From Hydrogenophaga sp. (GTDB lineage: Bacteria; Pseudomonadota; Gammaproteobacteria; Burkholderiales; Burkholderiaceae_C): a stretch of DNA of 64,000 bases. The stretch is taken from contig JAEUOT010000011.1 of assembly GCA_016790705.1 (NCBI GenBank), forward strand, positions 1 to 64,000. Direction: 5' to 3'. This document shows positions 20,702 through 59,770 of the stretch, piece by piece (positions within the stretch are counted from its first letter, which is position 1; each line of letters opens with the position of its first letter). The position numbers and the translations under genes are program-made. The notes beneath the pieces were generated by a model, which did not search any database, was not told where the DNA came from, and saw only the letters and a list, made by a program, of their open reading frames with translations.

Positions 20702-20720
20702 TCCCCTGTCGGGAGGGGTG

Positions 20721-20746
20721 AAAAGGGCCAGAAATGGCCCTTTTTT
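20721..20746 (+). terminator. Intrinsic terminator closing the first head operon
   Basis: Stem AAAAGGGCCA / TGGCCCTTTT with a four-base GAAA loop and six T. Separates the packaging/portal operon from the nucleic-acid module. Confidence 0.85.
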
Positions 20747-20758
20747 GCCGCCTCGTAA

Positions 20759-20854
20759 GCATCAAATAATGATGCTATAATGTGGCATCCAAGGGGGAAA
20801 ACCCCTTGTTTCCCCGCTCCTCGGGGGCTTGCTGAGGACTTTTGGAGAACTGCG
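20759..20854 (+). promoter_or_regulatory. Promoter plus two-hairpin leader, copy A
   Basis: Extended -10 promoter TGCTATAAT (20773-20781) inside a palindrome (GCATCA/TGATGC, 20759-20775). The predicted 5' leader forms hairpin 1 (AAGGGG-GAAAA-CCCCTT) and hairpin 2 (CCCCG-CTCCT-CGGGG), then GGAGAAC before the start codon. Thirty bases around the promoter are identical to copy B at 22826-22855, while hairpin 1 has a different sequence in copy B but still pairs. Confidence 0.75.
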
Positions 20855-20953: not shown

Positions 20954-22813
20954 ATGAGCGAAGACCTGATGCATGCGGACGAGCTGGAGGTGGTGAACGA
21001 TGAGCCGTTCTTTGCCCCGGCCAGCGCGGACATGGTGGACGGCCTGCTGGGTGAGTACCGGGCGATGCGTGCCAAGGTGGAGCGAGTGGCTGCGGTGATG
21101 AACGGCCCGGACCTGGCCGGGGCGCTGCACTACTTCGCGGAATACGCAGGGCGCAATGACCGGCACCTGTCGTCGCACACTGTGGAAAAGCTGTTTGACC
21201 TCGATGGCGCGATCGCGCACCTGAACGCGGCGTTTTGGTCGAAGGCGATGCACCTGACGGATGTGCTTGACGTCATGCCGCAGGCACGGCGCGATGCCTG
21301 GCACAAACAGATCCAGAACCCGCTGGGCGAGAAGAAGGACCGTTACAGCGCGGAGTGGATCGTGGAGCCGATCCCGGAGTTCAACGAGGACAACGTGCGT
21401 TCGACGCTGACGGCGCTGCTGACGCAGCGGGAGACGTTCTTTGCTGAGCGGGTGGACGGCATTTTTCGCAGCCTGTCGAAGACGCACGTGACGAACGCGC
21501 CGGAGGGGTTTAACCGCCGGATGATCATTGCGAACTGCGTGGACCAGTGGGGCTATGTGGGGCACAGCCGAGTGGGCGTGATCAACGATCTGCGCTGCGT
21601 GATTGCTCGGTTCATGGGGCGAGAGGAACCGAAGTACGACGCGACTGGCGGGGTGGTTCGGTATGCCAGGGAGCGCCGCGGCGAGTGGATCAGCGTGGAC
21701 GGTGGGGCGATCCGCATCCGTTGCTACCTGGTGGGCACGGCGCACCTGGAGGTGCACCCGGACATGGCGTGGCGTCTGAACTGCGTGTTGGCCCAGCTGT
21801 ACCCGCTGGCGATCCCGTCACAGTTCCGCGAGCGGCCGAAGAAGCGGCTGAAGGCGTTTCAGATGATCGGGCGACCACTGCCGTTTGCGGTGCTGGCGCG
21901 GCTGGGAGCGCTGGAGCAGGCTTGGGACTTGAAGCCGAACGCGGGGTTTCGCGAGAACAACCGCGTGACTGTGCCGGGGTGCTACGACTTTCGGTATGGC
22001 GAACGTGAGGCCAGCGAGCAGGTAAGGGCCGAGACGGGGCGGGTGCTGGCTGCCCTGGGCGGCACGCCGGTGAGTGAAAGACGGTGGGCGTTCGACTACA
22101 ACCCGCTGGAGGTGATCAAAGAGATTGTGGCGAGCGGGTGTGTGCCGGACCAGAAAGCGCACCAGTTCTACCCGACGCCCGAGAAGCTGGCGCGGATTGC
22201 GGTGGACCTGGCGGAAGTGAAGGATGGCCACGCGGTGCTGGAGCCGAGCGCCGGCATTGGCGGGCTTGCTGACCTGCTGCCGGCCGACCGCACAACGTGC
22301 GTCGAGATAAGCCCGCTGCACTGCAAGGTGCTGGAGGCGAAGGGCTACATGGTGAGGAACTTCGATTTCCTGGCATGGACAGACGCCACTGTGGCGCGGT
22401 TTGACCGCATCGTGATGAACCCGCCTTTCAGTGATGGCCGGTGGCAGGCACACACGGAGCACGCGGCCGGGATGCTCACGCCCGGCGGGCGGCTGGTGGC
22501 GATCTTGCCGGCGAGCGCGAAAAACCGGATGAGCCTGACGGGCCTGGATTGCCAGTGGCATGGCCCCTATGACAACGAGTTTGCCGGCACGAGCGTTTCG
22601 GTGGTCATCCTGGTGGCTGTTGGTGCCAAGGTGGCCCCGAAGCCGGCCCAGGCTTCCCCCAGGGATGAGCCGGCCCCGGCCCCGGTGAAGGCATCCGGCA
22701 GCACCAGGAAGGCCCCCAGGGCTGCCCAGGTGGCCCCGGATGGCCCCCAGGATGAGCCCGAAGCCCTGCAGGACCTGGAGCCGGCCGGGGAGGGGCAAAA
22801 CTGCCTTTTCTGA
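20954..22813 (+). CDS. DUF4942 / class I SAM-dependent DNA methyltransferase with C-terminal clamp-binding-like motif
   Basis: 619 aa. The N-terminal half matches the DUF4942 style found in phage methylases (FFAERVDGIFRSLS..HVTN; GFNRRMI). The C-terminal half is a methyltransferase: HQFYPTPEKLA (about 402-412), VLEPSAGIGGLADLL as motif I, and the catalytic IVMNPPFS at about 487-494, typical of N6-adenine enzymes. A Pro/Ala/Lys-rich linker follows, and the protein ends GQNCLF, resembling the clamp-binding consensus Qxx(L/M)F. It is driven by promoter copy A, and the next gene is a sliding clamp. Confidence 0.8.
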   Translation: MSEDLMHADELEVVNDEPFFAPASADMVDGLLGEYRAMRAKVERVAAVMNGPDLAGALHYFAEYAGRNDRHLSSHTVEKLFDLDGAIAHLNAAFWSKAMHLTDVLDVMPQARRDAWHKQIQNPLGEKKDRYSAEWIVEPIPEFNEDNVRSTLTALLTQRETFFAERVDGIFRSLSKTHVTNAPEGFNRRMIIANCVDQWGYVGHSRVGVINDLRCVIARFMGREEPKYDATGGVVRYARERRGEWISVDGGAIRIRCYLVGTAHLEVHPDMAWRLNCVLAQLYPLAIPSQFRERPKKRLKAFQMIGRPLPFAVLARLGALEQAWDLKPNAGFRENNRVTVPGCYDFRYGEREASEQVRAETGRVLAALGGTPVSERRWAFDYNPLEVIKEIVASGCVPDQKAHQFYPTPEKLARIAVDLAEVKDGHAVLEPSAGIGGLADLLPADRTTCVEISPLHCKVLEAKGYMVRNFDFLAWTDATVARFDRIVMNPPFSDGRWQAHTEHAAGMLTPGGRLVAILPASAKNRMSLTGLDCQWHGPYDNEFAGTSVSVVILVAVGAKVAPKPAQASPRDEPAPAPVKASGSTRKAPRAAQVAPDGPQDEPEALQDLEPAGEGQNCLF

Positions 22814-22825
22814 GGCATCACAGAA

Positions 22826-22916
22826 TCAAATAATGATGCTATAATGTGGCATCCGGCCCGGTGTGGCCGGTCCCCGCTCCTCGGGGGTTTGCAGAGGACT
22901 TTTTGGAGAACTTGAC
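22826..22916 (+). promoter_or_regulatory. Promoter plus two-hairpin leader, copy B
   Basis: The same 30-base promoter core (TGCTATAAT at 22838-22846) as copy A. Hairpin 1 here is CCGGCC-CGGTGT-GGCCGG, a different sequence from copy A but still paired, and hairpin 2 is again CCCCG-CTCCT-CGGGG. GGAGAAC precedes the clamp gene. Confidence 0.75.
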
Positions 22917-24431
22917 ATGATCGACCTGAAAACCATTCTGAAGCTTGCCGCCAAGCCGAGCAGCGTGGAAGCGACGCGCTGCGTGGTGTTCACGGGCAAG
23001 AGCGCGATGACGATGAATGGGATGGACTGGATTGCGGGCGTGCCGTGCGAGCAGCCGGCGCTGACGAAGCCGGTGGTGGTGCCGATTGCCGCGATCCAGA
23101 AACACCTGTCCAAGAGTCGCCACCTGTTGGTGACGCCGGACGGGCTGACGAACGGGAGCAACATCACGACGGCGTTTGAGTTCGGCAAGCACGACTATGC
23201 GGGCATGCTGGACCACATGCCGAAGATGCCCGAGACGAAGCCGGTGCAGTTCGAGCTGGACCTGGACGCGCTGGACCGGGTGCAGGTGGTGGCGGGGCGG
23301 CAGGATATCCGCTACTACCTGAACGGGGTTCTGTTCGACCTGACGCATGGGGCGCTGGTGGCCACCGATGGCCACCGGATGCATCTGTACCTGAACCGGG
23401 TTCCCCAGGCGTTTGACCGAGGCATCAAGGATGGGAAGCCGACGAAGCCCGAGGTGTCGGTGATCTGCCCGAACGCGCCGCTGGATTTCATCGTCAACAG
23501 CGCGCAGGAGCGGGCACAGGTGATGCTGTGGGATGCGGACAAGGAGCAGCAGGGGTGCATCCTGATCAACGCGGGCGATGCGTTTGTGTGGGTGCGCAAC
23601 CCGATCAAAGGCAAGTTCCCCGACTGGCAGCGCGTGCTGCCGGCCCTGGCGCAGCGGCCGGTGTGGGCCGAGCTGGACCCGGTGCAGGTGGCGGACGCGG
23701 CTGCCGGCTTGGCCGGGGTCTACAAGGCCGCAGGCTCGAAGCAGGGCGCGGCCCAGCTGAACCTCGGGGCCCACGCGCTGATCGCCAACACGAAGGAACG
23801 CGACCGTATCCCCCTGGTGGTGAACCTGCACACCGATGTGCCGGGCTTTGACCTGACGAAGCTGGCCGGGGCCATGCATGCGACGTTCTATGCCGGGTAT
23901 CTGCAGGACGTGGCGGACTGCGTGACGGCGAAGGCGCAGTGGCGCCTGTCGGCTGAGAAGCCCTGGAATGATTCGCTGCTGGTGACAGACGGTGATTTCC
24001 GGGGCGTGGTGATGCCGATGCGCGATATCGACAACCTGGCCCCGGAAACCGCCCAGGCTGCCCCGGTGGCTGCTGAGCCCGTGCCGGCCGTCGAATCGGC
24101 CCAGGAAGCCCCCCAGTGGCTGCCGGCCCCGGTCAAGGCTCCCCGACTGGCCAAAAAGGCCCGGAAACCGGCCCAGGAGGCCCCCCAGGCTGCCCCGGTG
24201 GCTGCTGAGCCCGTGCCGGCCGTCGAATCGGCCCAGGAAGCCCCGGAAGCTGCCCAGGCTGCCGAGGCCCCGGAACCGGTGCCAGATGCCCCCCAGGTGG
24301 CCGAATCCGAGCCCGTGCCGGCTGCTGTGGCTGCTGTGGCTGCCCAGCTGGTGCAGGGGGCCCAGGAGACTGCCAAAAAGGCCCCCAGGAAGCCCCGCAA
24401 GGCCCCCCAGGCTGCCCCGGTGGCTGCCTGA
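22917..24431 (+). CDS. Phage-encoded DNA sliding clamp (DnaN/beta-like) with a long C-terminal tail
   Basis: 504 aa. Segments closely match the bacterial beta clamp: QDIRYYLNGVLFD (about 128-140; E. coli has QDVRYYLNGMLFE), VATDGHR (about 148-154), GKFPDWQRVLP (about 231-241; E. coli GRFPDYRRVLP) and VVMPMR (about 364-369), which is the very C-terminus in E. coli DnaN. The first ~370 residues therefore span three clamp domains. A ~130-residue Ala/Pro/Glu/Lys tail follows, with an exact 61-bp internal repeat. The clamp would tether polymerase or partner proteins to DNA. No phage DNA polymerase is seen, so it may recruit host Pol III or the neighbouring methyltransferase. Confidence 0.85.
   Translation: MIDLKTILKLAAKPSSVEATRCVVFTGKSAMTMNGMDWIAGVPCEQPALTKPVVVPIAAIQKHLSKSRHLLVTPDGLTNGSNITTAFEFGKHDYAGMLDHMPKMPETKPVQFELDLDALDRVQVVAGRQDIRYYLNGVLFDLTHGALVATDGHRMHLYLNRVPQAFDRGIKDGKPTKPEVSVICPNAPLDFIVNSAQERAQVMLWDADKEQQGCILINAGDAFVWVRNPIKGKFPDWQRVLPALAQRPVWAELDPVQVADAAAGLAGVYKAAGSKQGAAQLNLGAHALIANTKERDRIPLVVNLHTDVPGFDLTKLAGAMHATFYAGYLQDVADCVTAKAQWRLSAEKPWNDSLLVTDGDFRGVVMPMRDIDNLAPETAQAAPVAAEPVPAVESAQEAPQWLPAPVKAPRLAKKARKPAQEAPQAAPVAAEPVPAVESAQEAPEAAQAAEAPEPVPDAPQVAESEPVPAAVAAVAAQLVQGAQETAKKAPRKPRKAPQAAPVAA
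24052..24244 (+). repeat. 61-bp direct repeat inside the clamp tail
   Basis: Bases 24052-24112 recur exactly at 24184-24244, 132 bases apart and in frame. They encode repeated Ala/Pro-rich linker (AAPVAAEPVPAVESAQEAP). The tail has grown by tandem-type duplication. Confidence 0.85.
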
Positions 24432-24735: not shown

Positions 24736-24758
24736 AATCAAAAAGTGAGGCTATCATG
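24736..24758 (+). promoter_or_regulatory. Degenerate third copy of the promoter core
   Basis: Nineteen of 23 bases match the promoter core of copies A and B, with TATCAT (24752-24757) in place of TATAAT. The two-hairpin leader is absent. A start 7-8 bases downstream falls next to the ATG at 24765, so the gene after it may be translated from a leaderless mRNA. Confidence 0.5.
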
Positions 24759-24764
24759 CACGGC

Positions 24765-25025
24765 ATGGCGAACCCGAAACTAGAAAAATCCCTGCGCCTG
24801 CTGGTGGCGATCGAGCGCAACCCGCAGTCAAGCGTGGCCCTGGCTGAGACGCTGGGCGTGAGCCGGCCGACTGTGGTGCGCCTGGTGGAAGAGCTGCGCG
24901 AGCTGGGGTGCCAGATCGTGGCTGTGCGCGATGGCATGGAGTGGTTCTACGAGCTGCACGATTGGGGCGTGTTCGCACCGGCCCGGGTGCGCAAGCTGCT
25001 GACCTCGAAGGAGCCTGCATGGTGA
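24765..25025 (+). CDS. Winged helix-turn-helix DNA-binding protein
   Basis: 86 aa from the ATG at 24765. Helix-turn-helix at about residues 24-46 (SVALAETLGVSRPTVVRLVEEL) and a wing-like C-terminus (QIVAVRDGMEWFYELHDWGVF). The earlier ATG at 24756 overlaps the -10 element and is unlikely to be transcribed. It overlaps the PP-loop gene by seven bases. Possible local regulator; its targets may be the duplicated promoters. Confidence 0.7.
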   Translation: MANPKLEKSLRLLVAIERNPQSSVALAETLGVSRPTVVRLVEELRELGCQIVAVRDGMEWFYELHDWGVFAPARVRKLLTSKEPAW

Positions 25026-25741
25026 ACCGAGTGTGTGAAGTGGTGCGCGAGGCGATAGGGCACGACAAGGCCCTTTTGTCGTTCAGTCTCGGGAAGGACA
25101 GCTGGGCTGCCTGGCTGAGCGCGCGGGACTACTTCGACTTCACGCCGTACTACCTGTACCTGGTGCCGGGCCTTGAGTTCGTTCAGGACTACATCGGCTA
25201 CGCGGAGCAGAAGCTGGGCAAGCGGATCGTGCAGTTACCGCATCCGGCCTTCTATCGGTGGATCAACCACGCCACGTACCAGCCGCCGGAGCGGCTGCGC
25301 ACGATCTTCGCCATCGACTGGCCAGCGTTCGACTACGAGGACATGCGGGCGGCTGTGATCGAGGACATGAAGCTGCCGGAGGATGTGTGGACGGCGACGG
25401 GTGTGCGCGCGGCCGACAGCCCGATGCGGCGGGCCTCGCTGATCAAGAACCAGGGGGTCAACGCGAAGCGGAAGTACTTCTATCCCTGCTGGGACTGGAA
25501 CAAGGAGCGGCTGCTGGCCGAGCTGGTGGCCAACGACATTCGGCTGCCGGTGGATTACAAGGTGTTCGGCCGGTCGTTCGACGGGCTGGACTTGCGCTTC
25601 CTGATCAAGATCAGGGAGCATTTCCCGAGGGACTATCGGACCATCCTGGACTGGTTCCCTCTGGTGGACATGGAGATTGCACGCTATGAGTTCGCGCAAA
25701 GGGCAGGGCAAGCACGGATCGCTGGACAGCGCAGGGCTTGA
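25019..25741 (+). CDS. PP-loop (PAPS reductase/DndC-like) phage protein
   Basis: 240 aa. The adenylation PP-loop LLSFSLGKDS at about residues 18-27 is followed by a Rossmann-like ATP pyrophosphatase fold (YYLYLVPGLEFVQDYI). The ECGLH cysteine of true PAPS reductases, present in the host CysH at 63.8 kb, is missing, so sulfonucleotide reduction is unlikely. Such phage proteins are suspected of nucleic acid modification, but no activity is established. The start overlaps the preceding winged-helix gene; the 3' end overlaps the next gene by 56 bases. Confidence 0.75.
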   Translation: MVNRVCEVVREAIGHDKALLSFSLGKDSWAAWLSARDYFDFTPYYLYLVPGLEFVQDYIGYAEQKLGKRIVQLPHPAFYRWINHATYQPPERLRTIFAIDWPAFDYEDMRAAVIEDMKLPEDVWTATGVRAADSPMRRASLIKNQGVNAKRKYFYPCWDWNKERLLAELVANDIRLPVDYKVFGRSFDGLDLRFLIKIREHFPRDYRTILDWFPLVDMEIARYEFAQRAGQARIAGQRRA

Positions 25742-57674: not shown

Positions 57675-58162
57675 CGCAGCACGAAAAGCGCAGTGCGTGG
57701 CACGCAGGGATGCAGATCGACTGGGTGGGGCACGACGACGACGAGGGGGTGGGGGCTCGGCAGCCCCAGGCACACGGCCACGGGCGGGGGGGTGGGTACC
57801 TCTATGAATGCACTACTCCCCAGGTTTGGGAGGATGCGAAGCTGCGCGAGCTGGCCGACATGGGCATGCCGCTGATCTGGATGGAGGTTGCCCAGGCCAT
57901 CGGCTTCGATGCGTTCATCACCATGTGGCGCCTGCTGGATGCGGAGTACGAACGCAGGGCCGACGCCGGCTCCATGATCGAAATCGAGCTGCGCCGGTAC
58001 CGGAGCTACCTGCGGTTCCAGCGAAACCGCTTCATTGAAGGCCTGGCTCCGTTCCTGGATGACCGCACCATCCGGGATAGGGTGGCCGACGAACTTGGTG
58101 AAGAACTGAGCCTTGATCATGTGACACGACTGGCCAACCGGCGCAGGATCGGCGGCGCATGA
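57671..58162 (+). CDS. Mor-like helical protein in the recombinase operon
   Basis: 163 aa. N-terminus rich in His/Gly/Asp, then LADMGMPLIWMEVAQAIGFD and a C-terminal RDRVADELGEELSLDHVTRLANRRRI reminiscent of Mor/C-type activators. ATGA overlap with the serine recombinase. It could be a DNA-binding regulator or a recombination directionality factor. Confidence 0.5.
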   Translation: MTQHEKRSAWHAGMQIDWVGHDDDEGVGARQPQAHGHGRGGGYLYECTTPQVWEDAKLRELADMGMPLIWMEVAQAIGFDAFITMWRLLDAEYERRADAGSMIEIELRRYRSYLRFQRNRFIEGLAPFLDDRTIRDRVADELGEELSLDHVTRLANRRRIGGA

Positions 58163-59736
58163 AACGCGCCGTGATCTACGCCCGGGTATCGAGCCGGAAA
58201 CAAGCTGACGATGGCATCTCGATGGACGCTCAGATCGAGCAGTGCGAGGCGCGAGCTGCAGCGCTGGGCGCCCAGGTACTGCGGGTGTTCCGGGACGATG
58301 GGGTTTCCGGCCGGTCGACAAAAGGTCGCACCGGATTCCTGGCTGCGGTGGCCTACTGTGAGGCCGCGCCGGTCGATTTCTTCATCACCTGGAGCACCAG
58401 CCGATTCGCTCGCAACGCCATCGACCTATGGGTTCATCAGGACCAGCTGAAGGCGCTGGGGACGCGGCTGGAGTGTCTGAACGCGGACATTGACGACGAC
58501 ACGGATGCTGGGTTCATCAACCGGGTGTTCATGGGTGCGATGGACCAGATGGTGTCGCGGCAGATTTCGCGCGACACGCTGCGGTCAATGAAGAAGTCGG
58601 CCGAGGACGGGTTTTTCACAGGTGGCCACGTGCCGTTTGGGTACCTGGTGCAGCAGGAAGGGAAGCGGGGCAAGTTGGCCCCCCATCCTGATGAGGCCCC
58701 GGTGGTGCGCAAGGCGTTCGAGCTGGCGCTGTCTGGTCTCGGTGGGCTGGCGATCATGCAGCAGCTGAACTCATGCGGGCAGCTGAGGCGAGGGGAGCGC
58801 TGGAAGAAGACCAGCATGCTCTACGTGCTGCGGAACGAGGTGTATGCCGGGGTCCGGACGTTCAACCGCCGGAACAAGAAGACGGGGCAGGAGAAGCCGC
58901 GCGACCAGTGGGTGCAGGTTGAAAGCCATGAGCCGCTGGTGGCTCGGGCGGACTTTGAAAAGGTGCAGATCATGATGAACGACAGGGCTCCCAAGGTCAC
59001 CCAGGGCGGCACGCCGCGCTCCGGGTTCGTGTTTTCCGGGCTGCTGGCCTGCGGCATCTGTGGGAACCCCCTGCAGATCGTCAACGGTACCAGCCGCAGC
59101 GGCGCGCTGTACAACTACTACGGGTGTTGCTCCCACAAGAAGGGGGCGCCGCGGTGCCTGTTCAAGAACGCGCGTGCTGACCTGTTTGACGACTGGCTGG
59201 TGGGCGAAATCGTGGCCAAGCTGGTGACCGTCGAGGCGATGGAGCACGCCGTGCAAGAGGTGTCGGACATGGGCAGCCGCTGGGCCCAGGAGCGCGCTGC
59301 ACAGCGCACGCTGCTGGTGAAGGAGCTGAGGGACCTAGAGAGTCGGCGCAGCAACCTCTATGACCTGCTGGAGACGCACGGCAAGGACACGCCGGACCTG
59401 GCCGACATTCGGGACCGCCTGAAGCTGCGGAACGCCGAAATTCGTGCGGTGGAGGCCCGTCTGGAGCTGCTGGAAGATGAGCCGGCCAGGGCGAAGGCCT
59501 TGAAGATCGAGCCAGGGCTGGCCGTGGAGGTGATGCGCGAGGTGGTGATGGCCGGCGACGCGCAAAAAAAACGCGCCTTCATGGGCGCGTTTCTGGAGAA
59601 CATCACGGTGCACTTGGACAGGGTGGCGGTCGCTTACCGCTCTGAAGCCCTGGTGGGCCTTGGACACCCTGCTGGTGTTCGTAATGGAGTGTTTTGGCTC
59701 CCCGACCTGGACTCGAACCAGGGACCTGCGGATTAA
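58159..59736 (+). CDS. Large serine recombinase (phage integrase) reading into tRNA-Asn
   Basis: 525 aa in the lysogen. N-terminal resolvase domain with the catalytic serine in YARVSSRKQADDG (S10 or S11), GVSGRSTKGRTGF and STSRFARN. Recombinase domain follows, then a Cys4 zinc ribbon (CGICGNPLQI; CCSHKKGAPRC) and a coiled coil (about residues 380-450). The last 11 residues (PDLDSNQGPAD) are encoded by the host tRNA gene. In the circular phage genome the frame would instead run into 14161-14263 and end with about 34 different residues. It is the likely integrase. Confidence 0.85.
   Translation: MKRAVIYARVSSRKQADDGISMDAQIEQCEARAAALGAQVLRVFRDDGVSGRSTKGRTGFLAAVAYCEAAPVDFFITWSTSRFARNAIDLWVHQDQLKALGTRLECLNADIDDDTDAGFINRVFMGAMDQMVSRQISRDTLRSMKKSAEDGFFTGGHVPFGYLVQQEGKRGKLAPHPDEAPVVRKAFELALSGLGGLAIMQQLNSCGQLRRGERWKKTSMLYVLRNEVYAGVRTFNRRNKKTGQEKPRDQWVQVESHEPLVARADFEKVQIMMNDRAPKVTQGGTPRSGFVFSGLLACGICGNPLQIVNGTSRSGALYNYYGCCSHKKGAPRCLFKNARADLFDDWLVGEIVAKLVTVEAMEHAVQEVSDMGSRWAQERAAQRTLLVKELRDLESRRSNLYDLLETHGKDTPDLADIRDRLKLRNAEIRAVEARLELLEDEPARAKALKIEPGLAVEVMREVVMAGDAQKKRAFMGAFLENITVHLDRVAVAYRSEALVGLGHPAGVRNGVFWLPDLDSNQGPAD
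59564..59592 (-). terminator. Minus-strand intrinsic terminator inside the recombinase gene
   Basis: On the minus strand: AAACGCGCC-(six-base loop)-GGCGCGTTT followed by an eight-T run. It lies 103 bases after the 3' end of tRNA-Asn in the lysogen and can stop tRNA transcription that has lost its native terminator. Confidence 0.7.
59692..59702. other. attR core of the prophage at the tRNA-Asn 3' end
   Basis: TTTTGGCTCCC, same as 14150-14160. It includes the encoded CCA and the discriminator and first acceptor bases of tRNA-Asn. The tRNA body to the right is host. Confidence 0.75.
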
Positions 59737-59770
59737 CAGTCCGTCGCTCTACCGACTGAGCTATCAGGGA
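59695..59770 (-). tRNA. tRNA-Asn (GUU anticodon)
   Basis: 76 nt including an encoded CCA. Acceptor stem TCCCTGA pairs with TCGGGGA; the anticodon loop reads CTGTTAATC with GTT anticodon; the T-loop is GGTTCGAGTCC. Phage integration left it intact. Its native terminator is now at 14.1 kb. Confidence 0.97.

Follow-up and report, generated by a model that had tools for sequence, protein, structure and literature searches.

The eukaryotic methyltransferase DNMT1 rides the sliding clamp PCNA by means of a short motif and marks new DNA (PMC9690074), and Escherichia coli polymerases Pol II and Pol IV carry a terminal Q-L-x-L-F or Q-L-x-L-G-L peptide in a C-terminal tail (PMC11139829). Insertion sequence (IS) transposases are mobile-element enzymes tethered to the host beta clamp by a short motif (PMC4549789, PMC5371812), and T4 gp45 is a phage clamp that serves a nonpolymerase process on phage DNA, late transcription (PMC2988020). 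The orphan N6-adenine plasmid methyltransferases M.EcoGIX and M.BceJIII act in a manner that depends on replication mode, and M.EcoGIX shields its plasmid from restriction (PMC7736820). We describe a prophage-like element of Hydrogenophaga sp. in which a DUF4942 N6-type DNA methyltransferase ends in a clamp-binding-like peptide and is followed by the gene for a sliding clamp. The window analyzed here is the first 64 kb (64,000 nucleotides) of a 101-kb contig in a 3.75-Mb genome. Judging from sequence, we give a probability of about one half to clamp-tethered, replication-coupled methylation by this enzyme.

The methyltransferase is a 619-residue protein encoded on the forward strand at 20954..22813. 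It pairs a DUF4942 domain (PF13708, E 2e-21) with a class I methyltransferase domain bearing EPSAGIGG and NPPF motifs, and its residues 2-555 match phrog_6263, "DNA methyltransferase" (E 2.9e-192). An AlphaFold model built on a 45-row alignment was confident across most of residues 16-566, and a Foldseek search found that the catalytic part resembles class I methyltransferases (RNA enzymes, and also Type I M subunits, PacII, and CamA), at template-modeling scores of ~0.2 that were computed over the whole chain. The last ~55 residues are rich in Pro, Ala, Gly, and Glu, and the tail proper (residues 567-619, 22652..22810, forward strand) is predicted to be disordered at 567-575 and 577-619, where the predicted local distance difference test score (pLDDT) falls below 50. 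The protein terminates in EPAGEGQNCLF, the last codons being CAA AAC TGC CTT TTC TGA at 22796-22813, and the peptide QNCLF (residues 615-619, 22796..22810, forward strand) therefore occupies the extreme C-terminus of a disordered segment. The GQNCLF end behind a flexible Pro/Ala linker on which the original prediction was built is thus confirmed by both the sequence and the disorder prediction.

The next gene, at 22917..24431 on the same strand, encodes a DnaN-like protein of 504 amino acids with a core of residues ~1-372 followed by a Pro/Ala/Lys-rich tail, and it had been correctly recognized beforehand as a sliding clamp. Residues 5-372 match phrog_947, "DNA polymerase processivity factor," at E 3.3e-16 over nearly the full profile (17-367 of 368), and a three-row profile of the protein matches solved beta clamps in the PDB with a best E of 1.3e-14; the Pfam central domain scores 26.7, just below its cutoff of 27. 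The best of these solved clamps is probably that of Pseudomonas aeruginosa. On alignment to solved clamps, the segments that form the peptide groove are retained (QDIRYYLNG, TDGHRM, GKFPDWQRVLP, and VVMPMR), and we presume that they correspond to E. coli R152/L155, T172-L177, P242-V247, and M362-R365.

Each of the two genes sits behind its own copy of one promoter-and-leader cassette, as the original prediction held, and both blocks of the cassette are identical between copies. The first promoter-like block (20763..20790, forward strand) places an extended -10 element, TGCTATAAT, inside overlapping inverted repeats (CATCA..TGATG and GATGC..GCATC); the second, 5' of the clamp gene at 22827..22854 on the same strand, has 10 of 12 promoter matches and a TG before the -10. 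The promoter-pattern match at 22827..22854 alone is within chance (0.6 expected), and for the duplication of the 28-bp block 0.00 were expected in shuffles. A 32-nucleotide leader, CCCCGCTCCTCGGGGG..TTGC.GAGGACTTTT, follows at 20812..20843 and again at 22872..22903, both on the forward strand. The 28-bp block, with its TATAAT, and the leader show no mismatches between copies, and each occurs only twice in the window, once 5' of each gene.

The mechanism we propose is that a phage N6-type methyltransferase acquired a disordered tether of ~55 residues with a weak clamp-binding peptide at its end, and that this peptide would dock in the canonical clamp groove, the simplest target being the phage's own clamp, the product of the next gene, with the host clamp as a possible second. 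The tethered enzyme would methylate phage DNA during copying, and this methylation would shield progeny DNA from restriction. From the kept clamp groove, and from the ability of that groove in beta clamps to accept a terminal L-F peptide carried on a flexible tail, we infer retention of the methyltransferase on replicating DNA; an L-F pair can bind the clamp alone (PMC11139829). The analogy with M.EcoGIX makes protection from restriction the most probable benefit.

The described systems differ from this arrangement in several ways. DNMT1 performs cytosine maintenance methylation through a PCNA-binding motif and PCNA, whereas the enzyme described here is of the adenine type, comes from a phage, and would use a C-terminal peptide and a beta-type clamp; we claim no common ancestry. 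Pol II and Pol IV are polymerases whose binding has been measured, while QNCLF lacks an aliphatic second residue. The transposases are tethered for transposition instead of DNA modification, and the partner of gp45 is the transcription machinery. M.EcoGIX and M.BceJIII are beta-class, single-strand-specific, Pol I-linked enzymes for which an intermediary is only speculated, with the contact of Pol I with the clamp cited, and the available portion of that report mentions no clamp motif (PMC7736820). A 2024 review of beta-clamp partners contains no word beginning "methyl" (PMC11139829). Among the matches listed in the literature searched, in which subscription journals and preprints are poorly covered, we provisionally found no clamp-binding motif described for a methyltransferase of a phage or plasmid. 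The common view of such methyltransferases is of free enzymes in a race against restriction. If many were tethered to the clamp, methylation would keep time with replication, and this would account for the modification of incoming or replicating elements before they are cut; such enzymes would be a prokaryotic counterpart of DNMT1-PCNA and a new class on the list of beta-clamp partners.

Close relatives of the clamp were found at four loci: the window, a prophage in genome G027 (locus L105; 37%), L148 (~54%), and L151 (~50%). Across 150 same-family genomes, a close copy occurred only in the clamp's own genome and in G027, the rest matching no better than E 8.4e-9, as host DnaN would; among 399 same-order genomes only its own genome had one, the rest reaching at most 75 bits. 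A single-sequence viral scan returned no clamp copy, and profile scans found L148 and then L151 and L152, the last being the L148 contig again. The G027 prophage is syntenic with the window and keeps the same gene order around the clamp, and its clamp retains most groove residues, with QDIRYY missing. The gene 5' of this clamp encodes not a DUF4942 protein but a 280-residue N6_Mtase (PF02384, phrog_5696), which has a Pro/Ala linker of its own and ends in PEMLGLFD. A methyltransferase thus stands beside the clamp in two of the four loci, drawn from different families and, in both, with a Leu-Phe tail. The leader (CC.GC.CCTCGGGG....TGC) also recurs, aligning 5' of RadC and of the clamp in G027 and 5' of the clamps in L148 and L151. 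Because this amounts to six copies in four phages, the equipping of accessory genes with a promoter and leader of their own seems to be a habit of this phage group.

We assembled the phrog_5696 family from viral-contig scans, plasmid and phage records, and genome matches, which yielded 94 distinct closed sequences, reduced to 81 at 80% identity. The strict clamp motif was defined, following PMC11139829, as Q[AILMV]x[LM][FL] or the six-residue version of it, and the background consisted of 1900 C-termini of related loci, taken from greedily picked stop-to-stop open reading frames (ORFs) of at least 120 amino acids rather than curated genes. Within the last 16 residues, 26 of the 81 members carry a strict motif, 11 more a relaxed one, and 44 neither, against 14 strict and 29 relaxed motifs in the last 15 residues of the 1900 background ends; the count depends on the pattern, rising from 26 (strict) to 37 (strict or relaxed) and 40 (with F/W variants). 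In an earlier 61-member subset, 22 strict motifs were observed where 500 rounds of tail shuffling gave a mean of 0.57 and a maximum of 5. The motif also follows the tail: strict or relaxed forms end 30 of the 44 members with tails of at least 35 residues versus 2 of 20 with shorter ones, among the 64 members that have a recognizable TP landmark (17 without it were left out). Of the 14 long-tailed members that escaped the patterns, seven look like variants (QLTLW, QLSFF, QLAFF, EQVAFDF, QSSFDF, EQLALI further in, and MLGLFD), and seven plainly have none.

The 40 members captured by the wider pattern yield a logo of Q (40), L (26), S/T (23), L (32), and F (38), with 31 of the 40 motifs at the very end of the protein, and motif identity is 63% (partly a product of the choice of pattern) versus 10% over the 20 residues just N-terminal to it. 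The 19 strict motifs of five residues at the terminus all differ in DNA sequence, which indicates selection on the protein, and hairpins at the gene ends are alike with or without the motif (mean z -0.25 for strict, -0.45 for relaxed, and -0.18 for none). On a FastTree tree, motif presence changes at least 14 times, compared with a mean of 27 and a minimum of 20 in 200 label shuffles; the motif is therefore inherited, with repeated gain or loss. Plasmid copies with the motif include those of pMOL28 (DDQLALF), Shinella (GQLRLF), Skermanella (QQLTLF), and Enterococcus mundtii (EQLVLF), and it is missing from copies in Herbaspirillum and in the enterobacterial plasmids of Phytobacter and Klebsiella michiganensis; many enterobacterial members may have no tail. 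Among three named phages, Dulem virus 37 and Vibrio phage 268E42.1 have no motif and Faecalibacterium phage Taranis has the variant GQLTFF, while 11 genome loci comprise one canonical motif (DDQLALF), three FDF-type variants, and seven without a motif, one of them broken. The family is widespread on plasmids: tblastn with one member against 72,556 plasmid records (E 1e-5) matched 2116, of which 582 were covered over 80% of the query and 1467 were typed conjugative, a tally of matches irrespective of their tails, distant members included.

As a separate observation, several phrog_5696 methylase genes are followed by genes for PcfK-like proteins (L270:6817-7863, L274:6698-7810, L273:4012-4659, and L261:2457-3275, the last below the Pfam cutoff), which carry QMDLF, QMDMF, QLSLF, or QILLF close to their C-termini.

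The search for clamp neighbors of methylases covered the fetched stretches, of which several stop at a contig boundary, and used two single-sequence queries; six of the 81 phrog_5696 members have a clamp on that stretch. One of the six is the G027 locus L105 (EMLGLFD), and L209 and L258, discussed below, are two more. In phage contig L260, the clamp and a methylase ending GQLLMNF are 2 bp apart; L233 has a methylase with QLKLF and a clamp 3 kb away, and L185 has a methylase with QQAGLF and a short clamp 4 kb away. A third type of methylase enters with Microcystis phage Mae-JY04 (L150), where the clamp gene is followed by a 52-residue ORF and then by an N6_N4 methylase ending RQIDLFGAVA. Genes for clamps and for methyltransferases thus recur as neighbors, although not all of these methyltransferases share the motif. 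On sequence grounds, we consider it a somewhat better than even bet that phages and conjugative plasmids carry a large unrecognized class of methyltransferases that would ride the clamp by a C-terminal peptide, some with a clamp of their own in the same operon, with modification coupled to replication, the peptide having been gained by at least two, and probably three or more, methylase families. Within this pattern, which appears to be real and general, the window motif is a weak example.

Several observations weigh against clamp tethering, above all for the window enzyme itself. QNCLF falls outside the strict motif because its second residue is Asn, which is not aliphatic; what survives of the claim that this protein ends in a clamp-ligand motif is the relaxed Qxx(L/M)F form, in the terminal, disordered position (the last five residues, pLDDT <50). 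The enzyme would act like a clamp ligand, yet it is not classed as a canonical one, since its motif fails the strict pattern. Its codons lie within a 10-pair hairpin that is unremarkable against shuffles (z -0.60). Of the four clamp loci, L148 has RadC and two small ORFs before the clamp, and L151 has the clamp directly after head-side genes, neither with a methyltransferase beside it; in L209 and L258, a phrog_5696 methylase without the motif lies 2.5 and 4.6 kb from a clamp. An AlphaFold model of the clamp from three sequences reached a pLDDT of only 29 and was discarded. Among 66 N6_N4 (phrog_67-like) methylases related to that of Mae-JY04, eight have a clamp within 1.2 kb, and only Mae-JY04 itself (QIDLF) bears a Q-type motif: in five of the other seven the end is GPLF, GGLF, or GSLF without Gln, and no L/M-F is present in L344 or in L312 (clamp on the opposite strand). 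The strict motif occurs in one of the 66 and the relaxed form in three more. An L/M-F pair lies near the end of 33 of the 66, mostly as GPLF without Gln, versus 93 of the 1900 background ends, an excess that is suggestive only and is not counted as a clamp motif.

The DUF4942 family itself also speaks against a conserved motif. Three of our viral-contig scans each kept the best 80 loci (of 96, 103, and 272); 93 distinct closed DUF4942 C-termini were available. The core end was recognizable in 78, with a median of 8 residues beyond it, and a tail of at least 25 residues occurs in the window protein only (69 residues; 1 of 78); some of the remaining 15 are distant or broken relatives. Motif-like ends number 3 of 93, the window QNCLF included, the others being QLDIF in L016 and L083 (one sequence, with a short tail ending NDQLDIFKTA) and QMGLGL in L097, and this is not clearly above the background given earlier. 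The nearest relatives, L001 (74%) and L002 (67%), end at the core without a tail, and so, near the core, do five named phage and plasmid DUF4942 loci. No clamp was detected within ~6 kb of L001 or L002, nor nearby at any other DUF4942 locus fetched; that the two nearest relatives lack tail and clamp neighbor alike counts in favor of tethering. We reject a family-wide motif in DUF4942, whose orthologues do not conserve it, and the refuting case named with the original prediction, a homologue that has an adjacent clamp but lacks the motif, could not arise among the DUF4942 loci fetched. At E 1e-40, the window methyltransferase was found in its own genome only among 369 same-class genomes; 18 of 150 same-family genomes gave a match, and apart from its own these were weak (3.7e-33 or worse). 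The broader proposal of a clamp-tethered, replication-coupled system is thus upheld in part, by the G027 layout with EMLGLFD, the phrog_5696 motifs, L260, and Mae-JY04, and undercut by the noncanonical QNCLF, the isolated DUF4942 tail and motif, the two clamps without a methyltransferase, L209 and L258, and seven of the eight clamp-near N6_N4 enzymes.

A different account of the window would make QNCLF incidental, the tail being a low-complexity GC-rich extension like the clamp's own and the Leu-Phe a by-product of a T-run in a 3'-end hairpin. The rarity of the motif in DUF4942 and its nonstrict form here fit this account, as does an imperfect repeat that the tail of the methyltransferase has in common with that of the clamp (61-70% to the reference copy), and the G027 EMLGL codons lie in a 7-bp inverted repeat just as the QNCLF codons lie in a hairpin. 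Q..[LM]F at the very C-terminal end was found in 2 of the 1900 background ends; the chance of such an end is about 1 in 1000 for one named gene, here the clamp's neighbor, and roughly 1 in 10 (~0.1 expected) anywhere on a contig with 101 called genes, and for this last reason QNCLF is a lead rather than proof. The hairpin, however, is no better than shuffles and drew no terminator call, which leaves an intrinsic terminator as the origin of QNCLF unsupported; in phrog_5696, gene-end hairpins are alike with and without the motif, and the DNA of the motif is different each time. The gene next door is a clamp, and the layout is repeated in a syntenic phage. We regard an incidental peptide as unlikely, although it deserves serious attention.

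Clamp tethering could also be directed elsewhere, with the tail a real ligand of the host clamp that brings the enzyme to any fork or competes with the other partners of that clamp, the phage clamp being coincidental or otherwise used. Only six of the 81 phrog_5696 members have a clamp detected on the fetched stretch, yet 26 have strict motifs, and the same tails occur on the plasmid copies of pMOL28, Shinella, Skermanella, and Enterococcus mundtii, which have to rely on the host clamp if no clamp is encoded elsewhere on the element. Members that lack a clamp of their own probably bind the host clamp. The clamp is, however, the immediate neighbor of the methylase in the window, G027, and L260, with only the 52-residue ORF between them in L150, and for the window enzyme we find an exclusive role for the host clamp distinctly improbable. 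It is very hard to credit that the phage clamp serves another process, such as late-transcription activation as in T4, with the methyltransferase an independent cargo behind the same promoter type: although a comparison of 25 window proteins with PHROGs and/or Pfam (a set that includes every called gene of at least 250 amino acids between 12.2 and 59.8 kb) gave no DNA polymerase match, both genes are embedded in the head-gene block, each behind a promoter block of its own, and L148 and L151 have a clamp without a methyltransferase, this account leaves the clamp-motif ends of the G027 methylase and its family unexplained.

Several minor observations accompany these results. In Azotobacter beijerinckii, the DUF4942 ORF at L097:400-1755 has a short tail and the end KDGQMGLGL, a strict six-residue form like that of Pol IV. 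On Halomonas plasmid pTHAF12_a (L281), we considered a DUF4942 tail in another frame and rejected it, since reading the frames revealed a separate ORF (L281:5602-5844; 70 amino acids from its ATG) beside the DUF4942 gene. This ORF is missing from the PLSDB gene table and ends in APTTPAPTDQLSLF (TDQLSLF), a canonical motif, and its product is perhaps a separate clamp adaptor. A phage that also carries a DUF4942 gene encodes a further N6_N4 DNA methylase ending in KQADLFGTGTAA (L021:10144-10968). DnaN-like clamp genes stand beside phrog_67-type methylases in L308, L314, L315, L344, L346, and L347, with Q-less GPLF, GGLF, or GSLF tails except in L344, which has none.

The clamp offers two further points. 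The far end of its Pro/Ala tail (24309-24404; PAAVAA..AQ.V..AQE.AKKAPRK) is conserved in L148 and L151 and the middle of the tail is not, so the far end may serve a separate function. The window, G027, and Mae-JY04 clamps also match PHROG 3007, "RusA-like Holliday junction resolvase," and two members of that group, L149:6058-6573 (BcepC6B gp31) and L185:1226-1984, resemble shortened beta clamps with TDGHK/TNGHA and [FY]PD.RR motifs; because both members read look this way, the resolvase label is doubtful and probably wrong. Just 5' of the first cassette, a strong hairpin at 20715-20752 (AAAAGGGCC...GGCCCTTTTTT, z -3.96), which the terminator scan did not list, is probably a terminator that insulates the cassette. 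Downstream of the clamp, the forward strand encodes a winged helix-turn-helix protein (24756..25025; HTH_11) with a counterpart in the syntenic G027 phage at L105:3014-3274 and a phosphoadenosine phosphosulfate (PAPS)-reductase-like protein (25019..25741; phrog_2302), likewise syntenic and with its counterpart in L105. The element as a whole has terminase, head, tail, and lysis genes, a DNA primase (phrog_5629), tyrosine integrases, and a large serine recombinase, and the end of the last of these genes overlaps a tRNA-Asn on the opposite strand (58159-59770), which is a likely attachment site of the prophage.

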